The notes below the pieces were generated by a model, which was not told the origin of the DNA, ran no database searches, and worked only from the letters and a program-made list of their open reading frames with translations. Positions 13,263 to 22,611 of a DNA stretch of 38,437 nt are shown here, piece by piece. The position numbers and the translations under genes were made by a program. Source of the stretch: Gammaproteobacteria bacterium (lineage in GTDB: Bacteria; Pseudomonadota; Gammaproteobacteria; PS1; Pseudothioglobaceae); NCBI GenBank assembly GCA_030739975.1, contig JASLYC010000012.1:1-38437 (forward strand), read 5' to 3'. Position 1 is the stretch's first letter. The number at the start of each line of letters is the position of its first letter.

Positions 13263-13585
13263 TTTTGCCATAAATATGTGCTTGGCCTAAATTCTTAGAT
13301 ACCTAAAAGCCTATTCGATTAATTAATTAAATACCGATAAAGTCAATCACATTATTTTTTTTATATTAATGTATTTTTTTATAAATTATTAAACATATAT
13401 ATGATATAATATACTTTAGTAGATATATGTTATTAGTTTTTACATGTTCGTATTATTTATACCAAAGTAAGACAAACTTTACCTGTGTATCTCTTAGGTG
13501 GTATAGGGCTATACCACCATCTGGACCTTATTAAACAATTGGCGGTTGGTATAATTCATTCATTTTTCTAATTATTTAAATTTTC
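13263..13585. other. Only gene-free stretch over 300 bp: sat control region
   Basis: No start-to-stop reading frame of useful length lies here. The left half is extremely AT-rich. It contains TATAAT at 13405-13410 enclosed by a 9-bp inverted repeat AACATATAT/ATATATGTT (13392-13400, 13423-13431). The right half contains the TGGTATA-type repeats and the likely sat promoter, described in a separate entry. No clear terminator for lptA was found. Confidence 0.8.
13457..13555 (+). promoter_or_regulatory. sat: Nested inverted repeats and -10 element upstream of sat
   Basis: A perfect 10-bp inverted repeat with a 2-bp centre, GGTGGTATAG-GG-CTATACCACC, spans 13497-13518. Outside it, TTATACCAA at 13457-13465 and TTGGTATAA at 13546-13554 form a second perfect inverted pair using the same TGGTATA core, placed nearly symmetrically (about 45 bp each side). 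The right outer copy runs into TATAAT (13550-13555), the probable -10 of sat. No good -35 exists. This suggests that a dimeric regulator binds at about -54 and may also cover the -10. Confidence 0.6.
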
Positions 13586-14794
13586 ATGTCAAACTTAGTC
13601 CCTCCTCATGGTAGTAATATTCTGAATCCACTTGCTCTATCTGGCGACAGACTAAATACAGAAGTAGACAAGGCCAATTCTTTGCCAACAATTACTTGTT
13701 CATCAAGAGAGGCTGGAGATATTATTATGTTGGGGATTGGTGGTTTTACTCCTCTAGATGGTTTTATGAATAAGGCAGATTGGCAGGGTGTTTGTGATAG
13801 CATGACAATGTCGAACGGCCTATTCTGGCCAATACCTATAACTTTATCTACAGACGATGAAGATATTATTGAGGGAGATGAGATAGCTATAGTTAGCCCT
13901 AAAAACAATAAAATTATTGCCACAATGAAGGTAAGTGAAAAGTACACAATAGACAAGGAGCATGAATGTAATAAAGTCTATAAAACAACAGATTTAGAAC
14001 ACCCCGGTGTTGTTATGGTTATGTCACAAGGCAAGTACAATCTTGCAGGACCAGTAAAGGTATTGTCAGATGGTGGCTTCCCAGGACAATACGGTGACTT
14101 GTACATGACTCCAATGCAGACTCGATCTTACTTTGAGGAAAAGGGATGGAAAACTATTGCAGCATTCCAAACAAGGAACCCTATGCATAGGTCACATGAA
14201 TATTTAGCTAAGGTTGCTGTAGAAATTTGTGACGGAATAATGATTCACTCTGTTTTAGGAGGCCTAAAGCCAGGCGATATACCTGCTGATGTGCGCTCAG
14301 AGGCGATTGCAAAATTAATTGAAAATTATTTTGTAGATAATACAGTTCTCCAGTCTGGTTATCCTTTGGATATGCGTTATGCAGGCCCTAGAGAAGCCTT
14401 GCTTCATGCTTTATTTAGACAAAATTACGGTTGCACACATTTAATTGTTGGACGTGACCATGCAGGAGTAGACGATTATTACGGGCCATTTGATGCTCAC
14501 AATATTTTTGATGAAATTGCAGAAGATGCTTTGATTACCAAAGCGCTAAAGATTGACTGGACTTTTTGGTGCCATAAATGTGGTGGAATGGCTTCTATGA
14601 AGACTTGCCCTCATACTGCAGATGACCGTGTCCTATTGTCTGGTACAAAAGTTAGAAAGATGCTTTCTGATGGCGAAGACCTTCCAGATACATTTAGTCG
14701 ACCAGAGGTCGCCAAAGTATTACAAGCATACTACGCCGACATAAAGGATGAAGATAAAGTAGAGGTTCAGCTAAAAGGACACTCTGCAAAGTAA
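13586..14794 (+). CDS. sat: Sulfate adenylyltransferase (ATP sulfurylase), dissimilatory
   Basis: In sulfur oxidisers this 402-aa homo-oligomeric enzyme runs in the direction APS + PPi to ATP + sulfate, giving substrate-level ATP. Visible landmarks are the nucleotide-binding [11 protein letters not shown] motif near residue 195, [17 protein letters not shown] near 290, and [10 protein letters not shown] near 350. Four cysteine/histidine residues in WCHKCGG and TCPH probably bind zinc, as in this Sat type. It is the single-domain form without an APS kinase extension. No Shine-Dalgarno is visible before the ATG. The aprM gene follows after 81 bp, so sat and apr probably share regulation. Confidence 0.97.
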
Positions 14795-14875: not shown

Positions 14876-15691
14876 ATGATCACTACAAACCCATTTGCTG
14901 AAATTTCAGCAACTATTTCACCAGAAGTGATGCAATATTACATTATCGCTATGGTAGTTCTTGTTGTAGGGGGTACAGTCATAGACATGTGGCATAAGAA
15001 GAGCGCTAAGTTCTTCTTTAATAATGCAAAGAAAGCCCAAGAAAATGCTACAAGGACTGTCGATGGAGGAGAAAAAATCTCAATTGCAGTTAAGACTGCT
15101 GTTGAAGATGTTGCTCTTTCAGGCGAGTTTTGCAATACTAAACGTAGAATAGCGCACCTTTTAACTATGTACGGTTTTGTTATATTTGTTGCAACCACCG
15201 TCATTATGATTTTTAATCCTCCTGTAGAAGGTGACGATATGTTGCCACAACTGTGGCACATAGGCGCAATTATGCTAGCTATTGGAAGTTGGTGGTTCTG
15301 GCTATTTATCAGAGTTGATGTTGCTGCAGAGGGTAATAAATGGTACAACATTGAGCCAATGGATTTGTTTAGCCTTTCCTTAATGGCAACTTCAGCATTT
15401 GCTTTATTATGGTCTTATGCAGGTGGATGGATACTGTTTGCTCTGTTCATTGCATCTAGCACAATTCTATTTGGCGGCGTGTTATGGTCTAAATTTGCCC
15501 ATATGTTTTTTAAACCAGCTGCTGCATACAATAAACGTATGATTAAAGCTGACGGCTCAAATGAAAACTTGCCGCAACCTGCTGACAGACAGAATCCTGC
15601 AGATAGAGACAGGCATTCTATGGAATTACTAAAAGACGCACCGTTAGATATGGGGCTTGGAATTAAGCGTGACGCTCCAAGGCACTACTAA
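14876..15691 (+). CDS. aprM: APS reductase membrane anchor AprM
   Basis: AprM is thought to tie AprBA to the inner membrane and pass electrons to the quinone pool. The 271-aa protein has five likely helices at about 20-40 (YYIIAMVVLVVGGTVIDMW), 88-110, 124-146, 160-180 and 184-210. It also has a long cytoplasmic loop after helix 1 and a polar C-terminal tail with DRQNPADRDRHS. Histidines within or near helices (HLL near 89, LWHIGAI near 127, KFAHMF near 209) are possible haem ligands, which is my inference. Its place directly before aprB and aprA is the main support for the name. This arrangement marks the AprM-type rather than the QmoABC-type system. Confidence 0.88.
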   Translation: MITTNPFAEISATISPEVMQYYIIAMVVLVVGGTVIDMWHKKSAKFFFNNAKKAQENATRTVDGGEKISIAVKTAVEDVALSGEFCNTKRRIAHLLTMYGFVIFVATTVIMIFNPPVEGDDMLPQLWHIGAIMLAIGSWWFWLFIRVDVAAEGNKWYNIEPMDLFSLSLMATSAFALLWSYAGGWILFALFIASSTILFGGVLWSKFAHMFFKPAAAYNKRMIKADGSNENLPQPADRQNPADRDRHSMELLKDAPLDMGLGIKRDAPRHY

Positions 15692-15726: not shown

Positions 15727-16203
15727 ATGCCTACTTTTGTATATATGACTCGTTGTGATGGTTGTGGACATTGTGTTGATATCTGCCCATCAGACATTAT
15801 GCATATCGATAAAAAATATCGTCGTGCAGTTAATATTGAACCTAACATGTGTTGGGAGTGCTACTCTTGCGTAAAAGCTTGCCCACAGAATGCTATTGAT
15901 GTTCGTGGATACGCTGATTTTGCTCCACTAGGACATAGTGTGCGTGTATTACGTGAAGAAGAGAAGGGGACAATTGCCTGGAAAATTAAGTTTAGGGATG
16001 GACGTGAAAAGAACTTCTTGTCTCCTATAACTACCAAACCATGGGGTAAAGCAATCCCAGAACTTGCCAAGCTTCCTGTTCCTACAAAGGAAGACCACGA
16101 TGGTGATTATCTTTGCTTTGAGCCCGCGGCATTCAATCAAGACGAAGGAATGCATACGTTGGCTACAAACGGTTTGAAATTTAAAGAGGGAGTTTACTAC
16201 TAA
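15727..16203 (+). CDS. aprB: Adenylylsulfate reductase beta subunit AprB
   Basis: AprB is the ferredoxin-like electron-transfer subunit. Two [4Fe-4S] cluster motifs are complete: C10, C13, C16, C20 (CDGCGHCVDICP) and C42, C45, C48, C52 (CWECYSCVKACP). The remaining part (about 60-158) is the beta-sheet and tail that wraps around AprA. Length (158 aa) is normal. A purine-rich RBS (AAGAGGAAAAG) precedes the ATG. The stop codon TAA overlaps the aprA ATG by 1 bp (TAATG), indicating tight translational coupling for a 1:1 complex. Confidence 0.97.
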   Translation: MPTFVYMTRCDGCGHCVDICPSDIMHIDKKYRRAVNIEPNMCWECYSCVKACPQNAIDVRGYADFAPLGHSVRVLREEEKGTIAWKIKFRDGREKNFLSPITTKPWGKAIPELAKLPVPTKEDHDGDYLCFEPAAFNQDEGMHTLATNGLKFKEGVYY

Positions 16204-18047
16204 TGGGATACAAGACAATATATGAGAACGACATCGATGTTTTAGTAGTCGGTGCTGGAATGGGCGGTACTGGTGCCGCTTATGAGGCTAGATACTGGGG
16301 CCGTGATATGAAAATTGTAATTGCCGAAAAGGCAAATATAAATCGTTCTGGTGCTGTTGCACAGGGTTTATATGCGATTAACTGTTATATGGGTACCTCC
16401 TGGGGCGAAAATAATCCAGAGGATCATGTGCGATATGCTCGCAATGACTTAATGGGTATGGTACGTGAGGACTTAGCCTATGACATGGCTCGACATGTGG
16501 ACTCTGCAGTACACAAGTTTGAAGAGTGGGGATTGCCACTTATGAAAAATGAAAAAACTGGCGCTTATCAGCGTGAAGGGAAGTGGCAGATTATGATTCA
16601 TGGTGAAAGCTACAAGCCTATTGTTGCTGAGGCTGCACGTAAATCTGCGGATAAGATCTACAATCGCATCATGGTGACCCACTTATTAATGGATGAAAAT
16701 AAAGAAAATCGTATCGGCGGAGCTGTTGGATTTAATTGCCGTACTGGGGACTATCACGTATTTAGAGCTAAGACAGTTATTGTTGGTGCTGGGGGTGCTT
16801 CGCACATATTTAAACCAAGATCAGTTGGCGAAGGTATGGGTCGTACATGGTACGCTCCATGGAGCTCAGGCTCAGCATATGCATTAACTATAGAGGCAGG
16901 CGCTAAGATGACACAAATGGAGAACCGTATAGTTCTGGCTCGTTTCAAAGACGGTTATGGTCCAGTTGGAGCTTACTTCTTGCACCTTAAGACTTACACA
17001 CAAAATGCTTATGGTAACGAGTACGAAACGACTTGGTATGAACACACTAAAGAAATTGTTGGTGAATATATTGACCATATCCCGACTCCTACATGTCTAC
17101 GTAATCATGCATTCATTAATGAAGTTGCAGCAGGCAGAGGTCCGATACATATGGTTACAATGGAAGCATTTCAGGACCCTCATCTAGAAGAAGTTGGATG
17201 GGAAAATTTCCTAGGAATGACAGTAGGGCAGGCTGTAGTATGGGCATCTCAGAATATTGACCCTAAATACATTAACCCTGAATTAACAACATCTGAGCCG
17301 TATGTTATGGGCTCTCATGCAACTTGTTCGGGTGCTTGGTGTTCTGGCCCTAAAGACATATCTCCAGATGAATACTTCTGGGGTTATAACAGGATGATGA
17401 CTGTTGAAGGGTTATTTGGTGCAGGAGACGCTGTTGGCGGTACTGCACACGCATTCTCTTCTGGTTCATTTACTGAAGGTCGTTTAGCTGCTAAAGCTGC
17501 AGTGCAATACATCAATGATGGCATGGCAGACAATATGAACGTTTCTGACAAGCAGGTTGCAGACCTAAAGGCAAAAATTTATAAACCACTAGATAATTAC
17601 ACTATAGGTCGTAATGAAATAGTTGGAGGCACAGTTTCTCCTAGCTATATTCTTCCTATCCAAGGTCTTCAGCGTTTAGAAAAGATTATGGATGAGTATT
17701 GCGGAGGCATTGGCGTTAACTATATGACTAATGATAAGCTTTTAAACATAGGCGTTGAAAAACTTAAGATTTTTGAGGAGGACCTTGAGAATATTGGCGC
17801 AGAAGATTTGCACCAATTAATGCGTGCATGGGAATTAAAGCACCGTCATCGCACATCTGAAAGTGTAATGCAGCATACATTGTTCCGAAAAGAAACTCGC
17901 TGGCCAGGTTATTACTATCGTGGAGATGCCTTGAAGCTGGATGACGAGAATTGGCATGCATTAACTGTTTCACATCGTAATCGTGATACTGGTGAGTACA
18001 CTATGGAAAAAGCTCCTGTTTATCATATAGTTGATGAAGATGAGTAG
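16203..18047 (+). CDS. aprA: Adenylylsulfate reductase alpha subunit AprA
   Basis: This is the FAD-containing catalytic subunit, which in sulfur oxidisers forms APS from sulfite and AMP while releasing two electrons. The 614-aa protein starts with the dinucleotide motif GAGMGG (17-22). Further FAD- and substrate-site segments follow: NRSGAVAQGLYAINCYMG, MIHGESYKP, VIVGAGGASHIF, and GLFGAGDAVGGTAHAFSSGSF with EGRLAAKAA. The C-terminal helical domain has ELKHRHRTSE and LFRKETRWPGYYYRGD. It is the last gene of the sat-aprMBA block and is followed within 40 bp by a strong terminator. Sequence quality and spacing suggest high expression. Confidence 0.98.
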   Translation: MGYKTIYENDIDVLVVGAGMGGTGAAYEARYWGRDMKIVIAEKANINRSGAVAQGLYAINCYMGTSWGENNPEDHVRYARNDLMGMVREDLAYDMARHVDSAVHKFEEWGLPLMKNEKTGAYQREGKWQIMIHGESYKPIVAEAARKSADKIYNRIMVTHLLMDENKENRIGGAVGFNCRTGDYHVFRAKTVIVGAGGASHIFKPRSVGEGMGRTWYAPWSSGSAYALTIEAGAKMTQMENRIVLARFKDGYGPVGAYFLHLKTYTQNAYGNEYETTWYEHTKEIVGEYIDHIPTPTCLRNHAFINEVAAGRGPIHMVTMEAFQDPHLEEVGWENFLGMTVGQAVVWASQNIDPKYINPELTTSEPYVMGSHATCSGAWCSGPKDISPDEYFWGYNRMMTVEGLFGAGDAVGGTAHAFSSGSFTEGRLAAKAAVQYINDGMADNMNVSDKQVADLKAKIYKPLDNYTIGRNEIVGGTVSPSYILPIQGLQRLEKIMDEYCGGIGVNYMTNDKLLNIGVEKLKIFEEDLENIGAEDLHQLMRAWELKHRHRTSESVMQHTLFRKETRWPGYYYRGDALKLDDENWHALTVSHRNRDTGEYTMEKAPVYHIVDEDE

Positions 18048-19477: not shown

Positions 19478-20641
19478 TCAATTGACCTTGGAATTTGTAT
19501 TAATTACCCTACCTAAATCTGCCTCAACAAGCCTTGATCTAAGCGCCAACAATTTATTTATTAAAGCCGGCTCTTTTTCTTCATAAGCTGATGCATCAGG
19601 CGAACGCTTTACTACAACTCCAAGAAGCTCAGTTATTGCATTTCCAATCGAATTTTGAGAGATTGTAACGATTAGCTTGCCCTGATCATTTCTAAATATT
19701 AATTGTTTAAATGCAGGTTGCCAACGAATTGCTGATGCGTATTTAGCATCATTAATGCATTTATCACGAACTTTCTTAGCTGCCGATAAAAAACAATTAT
19801 TAAACAGTAAAGTTTTTTCTATCTCTTTAGGGAAATAAGAGTCATTAGGAACTCCGGAGTTCCTACTCGATACTTGTGCAAAAAAAGCTCTATAGAAATC
19901 AATAAAACCCTTTAATATATTGTCATATTCTTTCCAAAAGTCAATATTTTTTAAGCTATCTATGCCCCCTTGAACCTCCCAGCTAGGCAATCCTTGCGGG
20001 TAACCAGTTAGAGAAAGACTTGCAGATTCACCTTTTATTGGTTTAAGAATTTGCAAATCTAAAGAAGATAAAAAATCAGAGTATACATTGCGCATATAGG
20101 CTGCAAATAGTGAATGTTGGCCACCATCTGTTAGATTTGGGTCATTTACGTCAGCCAGATTTGCGCATGCTAAATCCTTCTTATCAAAAACAATAAAATG
20201 GTTATGCAGCATCCTTATGCTTGGTACTCCTGGAGAAGCGATAGGCCAAGTTGCATCTAATGAAGCTTCACCTGCAAGAACAAGAAATCTGTCTGGATCA
20301 GGGTACAGATTCAACATGAAATCAAAAATAATCTGATTCATTCTATTCCACACGCCTCTCACTTTTCTTGGCAGTTGAGTTCTTCTTACTGGTCGACCAA
20401 GAGGATTGAGAATGCTTTGAGACGTATTATAAATAATTGAACAGTCAAACTCATTTGAATGACCTAATGCTTTCCTATAAAGCAATAAATCTTCGTCATT
20501 AATTAAAAGACCATTATTTTCAGCAAGGTCTTTTAGATTTTCTGGTGAGTTAAAAAACTCATTAGGCTTCATTCCTTCAGGCACTTCCAAAGGAATTGGT
20601 CTGAAAGGAATGTTGATTTCTCTTGGGCCGATATTGTCCAA
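19478..20641 (-). CDS. Uncharacterised 387-aa protein in the pfp-adk unit
   Basis: I do not recognise this soluble protein. It has no signal peptide or membrane helix. Features that may be conserved are LGRPVRRTQLPRKVRGVWNRM, DRFLVLAGEASLDATWP, an HNH-containing strand LHNHFIVFDKKD near residues 145-156, LTGYPQGLPSWEVQGG, and a C-terminal strand pair (KQLIFRNDQGKLIVTISQN). The LHNHFIVF strand recalls His-x-His motifs of HIT/GalT-like nucleotidyl transferases, but the match is too short to assign. Translation may start at TTG 20641, only 7 bp after adk, or at ATG 20572 (24 codons later). Its tight link to adk hints at nucleotide metabolism. Confidence 0.7.
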   Translation of the reverse strand: MDNIGPREINIPFRPIPLEVPEGMKPNEFFNSPENLKDLAENNGLLINDEDLLLYRKALGHSNEFDCSIIYNTSQSILNPLGRPVRRTQLPRKVRGVWNRMNQIIFDFMLNLYPDPDRFLVLAGEASLDATWPIASPGVPSIRMLHNHFIVFDKKDLACANLADVNDPNLTDGGQHSLFAAYMRNVYSDFLSSLDLQILKPIKGESASLSLTGYPQGLPSWEVQGGIDSLKNIDFWKEYDNILKGFIDFYRAFFAQVSSRNSGVPNDSYFPKEIEKTLLFNNCFLSAAKKVRDKCINDAKYASAIRWQPAFKQLIFRNDQGKLIVTISQNSIGNAITELLGVVVKRSPDASAYEEKEPALINKLLALRSRLVEADLGRVINTNSKVN

Positions 20642-21366: not shown

Positions 21367-22611
21367 TTAAACTTCAAATGGAGGCAACTTTTTATTTACC
21401 ATTTGTTTTTTCATAACGACATAGTCAGGCAAGCCATTTTTATAAGGGGGATAGTTCTCACCCTCAATTAAAGGTCGTAGGTAATCCCTACAAGAGTCAG
21501 TTATTCCAAAGCCATCATCAGATATATAATCTGCAGGCATCATCTTTTCAACATTAGCTATATCCTTAAGCTCACCCAAACCTATTTCCCATTTATATGG
21601 ATTGTTTGATGTGCGAATTATGGCAGGCATAACAGAGTTTTTACCTTCAACAGCCATATTTACAGCAGCCTCTCCAAGCGCATAGGCTTGTTTAACATCT
21701 GAATCAGAAGAAAGATGACGAGCGGCACGCTGAAGGTAATCAGCAACTGCCCAGTGATATTTATAACCTAAAGAATTTTTTATAAGGTTAGCTACAACTG
21801 GTGCTGCTCCACCAAGTTGCGCATGCCCAAAGTCATCTCTTGTTCCTTGCTCAGCAAGGAACTTTCCGTCAGGCCATTTTGTACCTTCTGAAACAACAAT
21901 AGTGCAGTACCCAAACTCTTTAACGTTACTATCTACTTTTGTTAAAAACTTCTCTTCATCAAAGTCGACTTCAGGAAACAGTATAACAACAGGGATTGAT
22001 TCATCAACTAAACCACCCGCTGCAGCTATCCAGCCCGCATGACGACCCATTACTTCAAGCACAAAAATCTTTGTTGAAGTTGCCGCCATTGAAGCGACAT
22101 CAAAGCTTGCTTCCATGGTAGACACGGCTATATATTTTGCAACTGACCCAAACCCAGGGCAATTATCAGTAACGGGCAAATCATTATCAACAGTTTTAGG
22201 AATGTGAATCGCTTGGATTGGGTAACCCATTGATTCAGATAGTTGAGATACTTTTAAGCATGTATCTGCAGAGTCGCCACCACCATTGTAGAAAAAGTAG
22301 CCAATATTATGAGCCTTAAATACCTCAATTAGCCTTTCATATTCTGCCTTATTTGCTTCCAAAGATTTCATCTTATAACGACAAGACCCAAAACCACCTG
22401 AAGGGGTGTGTTTTAAGGCTGCTATGTCTGTATCAGATTCCTTGGACGTGTCAATTAAGTTTTCAGTTAACGCCCCAATTATGCCGTTTTGTCCAGCAAA
22501 CACTTTGCCAATCTTATTTGAGTGTTTTCTTGCTGTTTCGATTACTCCGCAGGCGGAAGCATTAATTACAGCTGTCACTCCACCGGACTGTGCATAAAAA
22601 GCATTTTTCAT
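21367..22611 (-). CDS. pfp: PPi-dependent 6-phosphofructokinase
   Basis: The enzyme reversibly phosphorylates fructose-6-phosphate with PPi. The 414-aa protein shows the phosphate-donor signature of the PPi class: in GGGDS (110-114) Asp113 replaces the Gly of ATP enzymes, and PKTVDND (138-144) has the Lys typical of PPi users. Other PFK landmarks are NGGGDSADTC, EVMGRHAGWIAA and LGGAAPVVANL. RBS AGGAGA precedes the ATG. It is the first gene of the pfp-adk-unknown unit. In autotrophic sulfur oxidisers such enzymes have been proposed to act on both fructose- and sedoheptulose-bisphosphate in a modified Calvin cycle, saving PPi. The gene name follows that use. Confidence 0.92.
   Translation of the reverse strand: MKNAFYAQSGGVTAVINASACGVIETARKHSNKIGKVFAGQNGIIGALTENLIDTSKESDTDIAALKHTPSGGFGSCRYKMKSLEANKAEYERLIEVFKAHNIGYFFYNGGGDSADTCLKVSQLSESMGYPIQAIHIPKTVDNDLPVTDNCPGFGSVAKYIAVSTMEASFDVASMAATSTKIFVLEVMGRHAGWIAAAGGLVDESIPVVILFPEVDFDEEKFLTKVDSNVKEFGYCTIVVSEGTKWPDGKFLAEQGTRDDFGHAQLGGAAPVVANLIKNSLGYKYHWAVADYLQRAARHLSSDSDVKQAYALGEAAVNMAVEGKNSVMPAIIRTSNNPYKWEIGLGELKDIANVEKMMPADYISDDGFGITDSCRDYLRPLIEGENYPPYKNGLPDYVVMKKQMVNKKLPPFEV

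Follow-up and report, generated by a model that had tools for sequence, protein, structure and literature searches.

The block of inverted repeats upstream of sat, the ATP sulfurylase gene, in the window (the whole stretch of 38,437 nucleotides analysed here) is likely to be an activator site of the sat-apr promoter, bound by a NarL-like response regulator shared across a regulon. The predicted functional unit, as judged from sequence comparison, is a set of three heptamers within 31 bp, located upstream of the promoter. Comparison of genomes shows a site that is conserved, keeps a spacing to the promoter that is either constant or displaced by roughly one turn of the helix, has shared targets and is restricted to one family.

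The three-heptamer element and the promoter of sat

The features of the window, with coordinates and strand where assigned, are:
13457-13465, minus strand: left outer copy, TTATACCAA, absent at the equivalent place in relatives
13488-13494, plus strand: heptamer 1, TATCTCT, first arm of a NarL-type 7-2-7 site, conserved as TAYCCCY
13497-13503, minus strand: heptamer 2, TACCACC, second arm of the 7-2-7 site, whose centre is 13495.5, predicted to be -66.5
13497-13518: inner palindrome, GGTGGTATAG-GG-CTATACCACC, equal to heptamers 2 and 3
13512-13518, plus strand: heptamer 3, TACCACC, 8 nt past heptamer 2, conserved as TAYCMCY
13546-13554: right outer copy, TTGGTATAA, overlapping the extended -10
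13547-13555, plus strand: extended -10, TGGTATAAT, containing TATAAT at 13550-13555
13586-14794, plus strand: sat, ATP sulfurylase, TIGR00339 and PRK04149 (NCBIfam) above cut-off, the first gene under the putative control
14876-15691, plus strand: membrane protein encoded downstream of sat at the aprM position, a name taken from gene order
15727-16203, plus strand: aprB, TIGR02060 above cut-off
16203-18047, plus strand: aprA, TIGR02061 above cut-off

Re-reading of the window bore out all the repeat sequences and positions given in a preliminary description, including the overlap of the right outer copy with the TATAAT -10, which follows from their coordinates, and the lack of a regulator gene adjacent to sat (a candidate lies on another contig). 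The inner palindrome stands as described; the third conserved heptamer, heptamer 1, which is the most informative part of the element, had been missed. The proposal that four copies work by looping is unsupported: relatives have nothing equivalent to the left outer copy at that place, which is also why looping between the two outer copies was rejected, and the right one amounts to the extended -10. The left copy probably lies outside the element; cooperative binding is possible. The related copy at 1129-1137 is one lone 7-mer, no more than chance predicts, and the claim that no spacer of the window other than that of the block is long was not established: a crude ATG-only picking of open reading frames leaves other gaps of 326, 400 and 558 nt.

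Over 29 promoters the heptamer consensus is TAYCMCY, with 7-2-7 spacing for heptamers 1 and 2, and none of the three heptamers varies at T1, A2 or C6, an invariance that is descriptive and not a test because these promoters were selected for carrying the element. Written as a dyad, the palindrome is 8-6-8, GGKGRTAT-N6-ATAYCMCC, with a further half-site upstream. It occurs once in its own genome with up to 3 mismatches allowed. Three more perfect inverted repeats (10-bp arms, loops of at most 6) are present in the window at 1497-1521, 19846-19865 and 21842-21862. For the protein in the aprM position, NCBIfam gave no more than weak matches, to TcuB and QmoC.

In most sites, 60 or 61 bp separate heptamer 1 from GTATAAT, a sequence invariant in the promoters of sat, dsrA, pfp, soxB and the DsrC-like operon; the second aprM site and the dsrA sites of several genomes have a spacing of about 70-73 bp, larger by about one helical turn. 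Assuming TATAAT at -12 to -7, the 7-2-7 site at sat is centred at -66.5, and those of other promoters at -65.5 or between about -75.5 and -78.5; transcription of sat is predicted to start near 13562. A simple promoter scan returned no site using the conserved -10, i.e. no recognisable -35. Such a layout would be that of an activator contacting the polymerase from upstream.

The geometry and sequence of the element resemble those of NarL sites, and it was the 7-2-7 arrangement that suggested NarL, ahead of the regulator search. Dyad 1 (TACCCCTTAGGGGGTA, TATCCCCTAAGGGGTA) is nearly identical to the site of the NarL co-crystal, TACCCCTAAAGGGGTA (PMC4549865). The agreement with the NarL heptamer consensus TACYYMT (PMC4886647) in 7-2-7 arrangement is close and not exact, position 3 being often T and position 5 sometimes A; the latter, disallowed in TACYYMT, is found in heptamers 2 and 3 of the window. 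In Escherichia coli ogt variants a single 7-2-7 site at -66.5 or -77.5 is enough for activation by NarL (PMC9314961), and the sites described here lie at -66.5 and about one turn further.

Conservation of the element and its targets

The upstream regions of sat from the window and 21 relatives (22 Thioglobaceae sequences) give a nearly gap-free alignment from the element through the -10, and the element is kept before sat in 20 of the 22, 61 bp upstream of the invariant GTATAAT, with the spacing off by one base in L019 and L082. The inner element is conserved in SUP05/Thioglobus relatives, a check that the preliminary description had proposed. The element is lost and the -10 retained in L016 (Thiodubiliella) and L081 (Gsub); the regulator and a dsrA site are still present in the Thiodubiliella genome G049. 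Upstream of sat in Pseudothioglobus and near relatives (L022-L028) neither element nor promoter was found. A Shine-Dalgarno-like AGGA/GAGG before sat, present in 18 other relatives checked, is missing from the window (13562-13585) and from its sole congener L004, a genus-specific loss.

A pattern search of 83 Thioglobaceae genomes returned mostly sat at equal distance, plus one perfect match before soxB, and a profile of the sat elements found more sites, at genes identified as DsrA, pyrophosphate-dependent phosphofructokinase (PFK), a DsrC-like protein and SoxB. With a second profile comprising element and -10, the best match was below 1e-5 in 52 of the 54 non-Pseudothioglobus genomes, although some of the searched genomes supplied training sequences and their matches are partly by construction; 21 dsrA sites were found by this profile only, in genomes outside the dsrA training set, and are free of this circularity. 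The same profile gave nothing better than 0.006, which is chance level, in 29 Pseudothioglobus genomes, and in 365 gammaproteobacterial genomes outside the family it had no match at 1e-3.

Among 40 sites that were read out, dsrA is the most constant target, in nearly every genome and in that of the window itself, where the profile search located sites at sat (E=2.6e-9) and dsrA (E=3.3e-12). Further targets are pfp, sat, phosphoribulokinase (L266, L270) and SoxX (L287); the SoxX site, from the genus to which the window belongs, is weak (E=0.004). The soxB, soxX and prk sites come from one or two genomes each. The element also precedes the DsrC-like operon, and aprM appears as a second site, several relatives having a second copy at the aprM-position gene. 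The recurrence before sox or dsr genes that had been proposed as a check is found before dsrA, soxB and soxX; together with the conservation in relatives, it supports the earlier suggestion that the sat promoter has a site for a dedicated regulator. A putative regulon of sulfur-oxidation and carbon-fixation genes is well supported by these comparisons.

Some further observations concern individual sites. The dsrA promoters of genus g9 (L154, L158, L161) have a fourth heptamer between the element and the -10, which forms a second inverted pair, ATATCACT-N7-AGTGATAT. In the DsrC-like operon of the same genus the first gene past the element encodes a 55-aa protein, MANGITKGNRP... (L155:2129-2293; L151 from 2173), that belongs to no Pfam family. 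The pattern match in L095 (G046:C16) is a chance one inside a CRISPR-like array whose repeat contains GTTGTGATTTGCGTTTAGGTGATAGTCGGTTACAAT. Strict versions of the element had 0 matches in viral contigs, giving no sign of carriage by SUP05 phages.

A candidate regulator and its rivals

A NarL-like response regulator was the only GerE protein found by a GerE search in the 1-Mb Vesicomyosocius genomes G035, G036, G039 and G044. It is encoded in a conserved gene order of mnmE (named by eye), sensor kinase, regulator and rhodanese, located in the window's own genome at G000:C72, where the regulator gene spans 1168-1806 on the minus strand. The protein combines a receiver domain (PF00072) and a GerE domain (PF00196), both above cut-offs, as a NarL-type regulator does; its closest solved relative is NarL (1a04, E=1e-40; next 1.5e-24), and its recognition helix is NarL-like (TVKLHVKSILKK vs TVKVHVKHMLKK in NarL). 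With 209.4 bits against a cut-off of 250 for the NCBIfam NarL equivalog, it is NarL-like and not NarL proper. The kinase similarly scores 167/553 bits (score/cut-off) for NarQ and 125/578 for NarX, with a match that starts at the central module, and is neither of them proper. No sensor domain was found by Pfam in its N-terminus, where two hydrophobic stretches lie side by side with a very short loop (by eye), and a CxC-x17-CxxC motif in its GAF region (L193-L211) is present in all 20 family kinases inspected. The cysteine cluster and the rhodanese gene after the regulator hint at possible Fe-S, zinc or persulfide sensing.

Orthologues of the regulator with at least 69% identity are present in 44 genomes, the next matches having 29-31%. 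In G070, G072 and G076 the regulator is seemingly absent, with the kinase beside a contig end or masked gap. Regulator or kinase was found in 48 of the 52 genomes with sites vs one of the 31 without, a co-occurrence that rests on few independent losses, so that a Fisher p-value overstates it; the four exceptions with sites (G001, G048, G068 and G069, drafts of 66-92% completeness) have no visible kinase or regulator. Both the element and the kinase/regulator pair are missing from the Pseudothioglobus genomes examined. Relatives of the regulator (45-59% identity) exist in about a third of the other Gammaproteobacteria sampled, several of them adjoining a rhodanese gene; these come without the element, and therefore their targets are at least not identical.

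We infer that the NarL-like protein would bind the element and activate the promoters behind it. In the mechanism that we propose, a dimer of the phosphorylated regulator would bind heptamers 1 and 2, the inverted pair of the 7-2-7 site (centre -66.5), further protomers would probably occupy heptamer 3, and the bound regulator would recruit RNA polymerase to a promoter that has an extended -10 and no recognisable -35. This module is found before dsrA, sat, the pyrophosphate-PFK gene, the DsrC-like operon, soxB, soxX and phosphoribulokinase, so that a single two-component system would switch sulfur lithotrophy in concert with parts of carbon fixation.

The rival that deserves most attention, although we regard it as unlikely, is that a different transcription factor (e.g. 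a LysR-type one such as CbbR, or Rrf2, Crp or ArsR) binds the conserved site while the NarL-like system controls something else. The regulator-family searches covered GerE and CsoR only, and the four draft genomes that have sites with no visible kinase and regulator would be compatible with another factor; on the other side, the 7-2-7 geometry, the heptamer sequence, the -66.5/-77.5 positions and the phylogenetic distribution jointly fit NarL. CsoR/CstR operators also resemble TACCCC..GGGGTA, and dyad 1 looks like such an operator, so that a persulfide-sensing repressor of this type might be imagined at the site. A CstR-type protein, YrkD, does control sulfide oxidation genes in Bacillus licheniformis (PMC9918477). 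However, a CsoR-family protein was found in none of the 83 Thioglobaceae genomes, the control genomes being positive, which excludes this operator at the sensitivity of the search, and a site upstream of the promoter is less expected for a repressor; the probability left to it is negligible.

Very improbable, too, is that the palindrome acts as an RNA hairpin, either a terminator of lptCA or an attenuator in the sat leader. The centroid fold does contain a 9-bp stem capped by a four-base loop, but its energy is no better than that of shuffles (z 0.41), neither a T tract or terminator-like site nor an Rfam match was found, and the element is upstream of the conserved -10 and so would fall outside the sat transcript. 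Moreover, the arms keep the heptamer consensus in relatives, and the element also precedes dsrA and pfp in other contexts. A chance palindrome in AT-rich spacer DNA would agree with the frequency of the TGGTATA 7-mer in the window (7 seen vs 6.9 expected), by which the core is not enriched. Four such copies inside 100 bp were seen in 0 of 300 random windows, and the 323-bp spacer is expected to hold about 0.004 inverted repeats whose arms are 10 bp long and whose loop does not exceed 6. Gap-free conservation across genera, recurrence before genes of one pathway and absence outside the family speak against chance, to which we give hardly any weight.

Relation to known systems and significance

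The proposed NarL-like system has in common with NarX/NarQ-NarL of E. coli the inverted heptamers 2 bp apart, a site centred at -66.5 or roughly one helical turn beyond, a NarL-type regulator with NarL as closest solved relative and a HisKA_3 kinase closest to NarQ/NarX. It differs in its putative targets, which are sulfur-oxidation and carbon-fixation genes instead of those of nitrate respiration, in a kinase that has a GAF domain with an invariant cysteine cluster and no periplasmic nitrate-sensing part, in the co-encoded rhodanese and the conserved third heptamer, and in that both proteins fall below the NCBIfam cut-offs of NarL, NarQ and NarX proper.

Two-component control of sulfur oxidation is known from other bacteria. 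NreBC of B. licheniformis activates sulfur-oxidation genes in response to sulfide (PMC9918477) and is likewise a two-component system for such genes, but it is Gram-positive, has a PAS sensor kinase, controls sqr-pdo and not rDsr/Apr/Sat, and works under the repressor YrkD. RsrS-RsrR and TspS-TspR govern sulfur-oxidation clusters of Acidithiobacillus caldus (PMC5093147), where RsrR also has its site upstream of the promoter; RsrR is, however, OmpR-like with the site AACACCTGTTACACCTGTT, TspR is sigma-54 dependent, and the clusters are tetH and sox. SoxR and sHdrR regulate sulfur-oxidation genes in Hyphomicrobium denitrificans (PMC10451225, PMC12423496) and differ in being ArsR-type repressors, one-component systems whose signal is sulfane sulfur. 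A NarX/NarL homologue has been named in another vent gammaproteobacterium with no link to sulfur genes. In the literature searched, which included few subscription papers, there was no report of a NarL-type regulator of rDsr/Apr/Sat genes, no transcription factor was named for these genes in SUP05/Thioglobus or in clam and mussel symbionts, and a search combining Thioglobus, two-component and sulfur oxidation returned nothing.

More tentatively, and with somewhat less than even confidence, the NarXL-derived system could be a cytoplasmic sulfur/redox sensor, in which the GAF cysteine cluster, with the rhodanese as sulfur carrier, would sense persulfide or thiol/redox state and set sulfur lithotrophy together with carbon fixation as a single regulon across SUP05/Thioglobaceae, the 1-Mb clam symbionts included. 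SUP05/Thioglobus bacteria rank as major sulfur oxidisers, as do the thiotrophic symbionts living in deep-sea clams and mussels, and the outcome of the present study is a cis-element, a list of targets and one candidate regulator that persists even in 1-Mb genomes. How sulfur oxidation is controlled can thereby be tested on one protein and a few promoters, and this regulator, the most likely binder of the element, would act as a master switch of sulfur-based energy metabolism in SUP05-type ocean bacteria and in the symbionts of clams and mussels.
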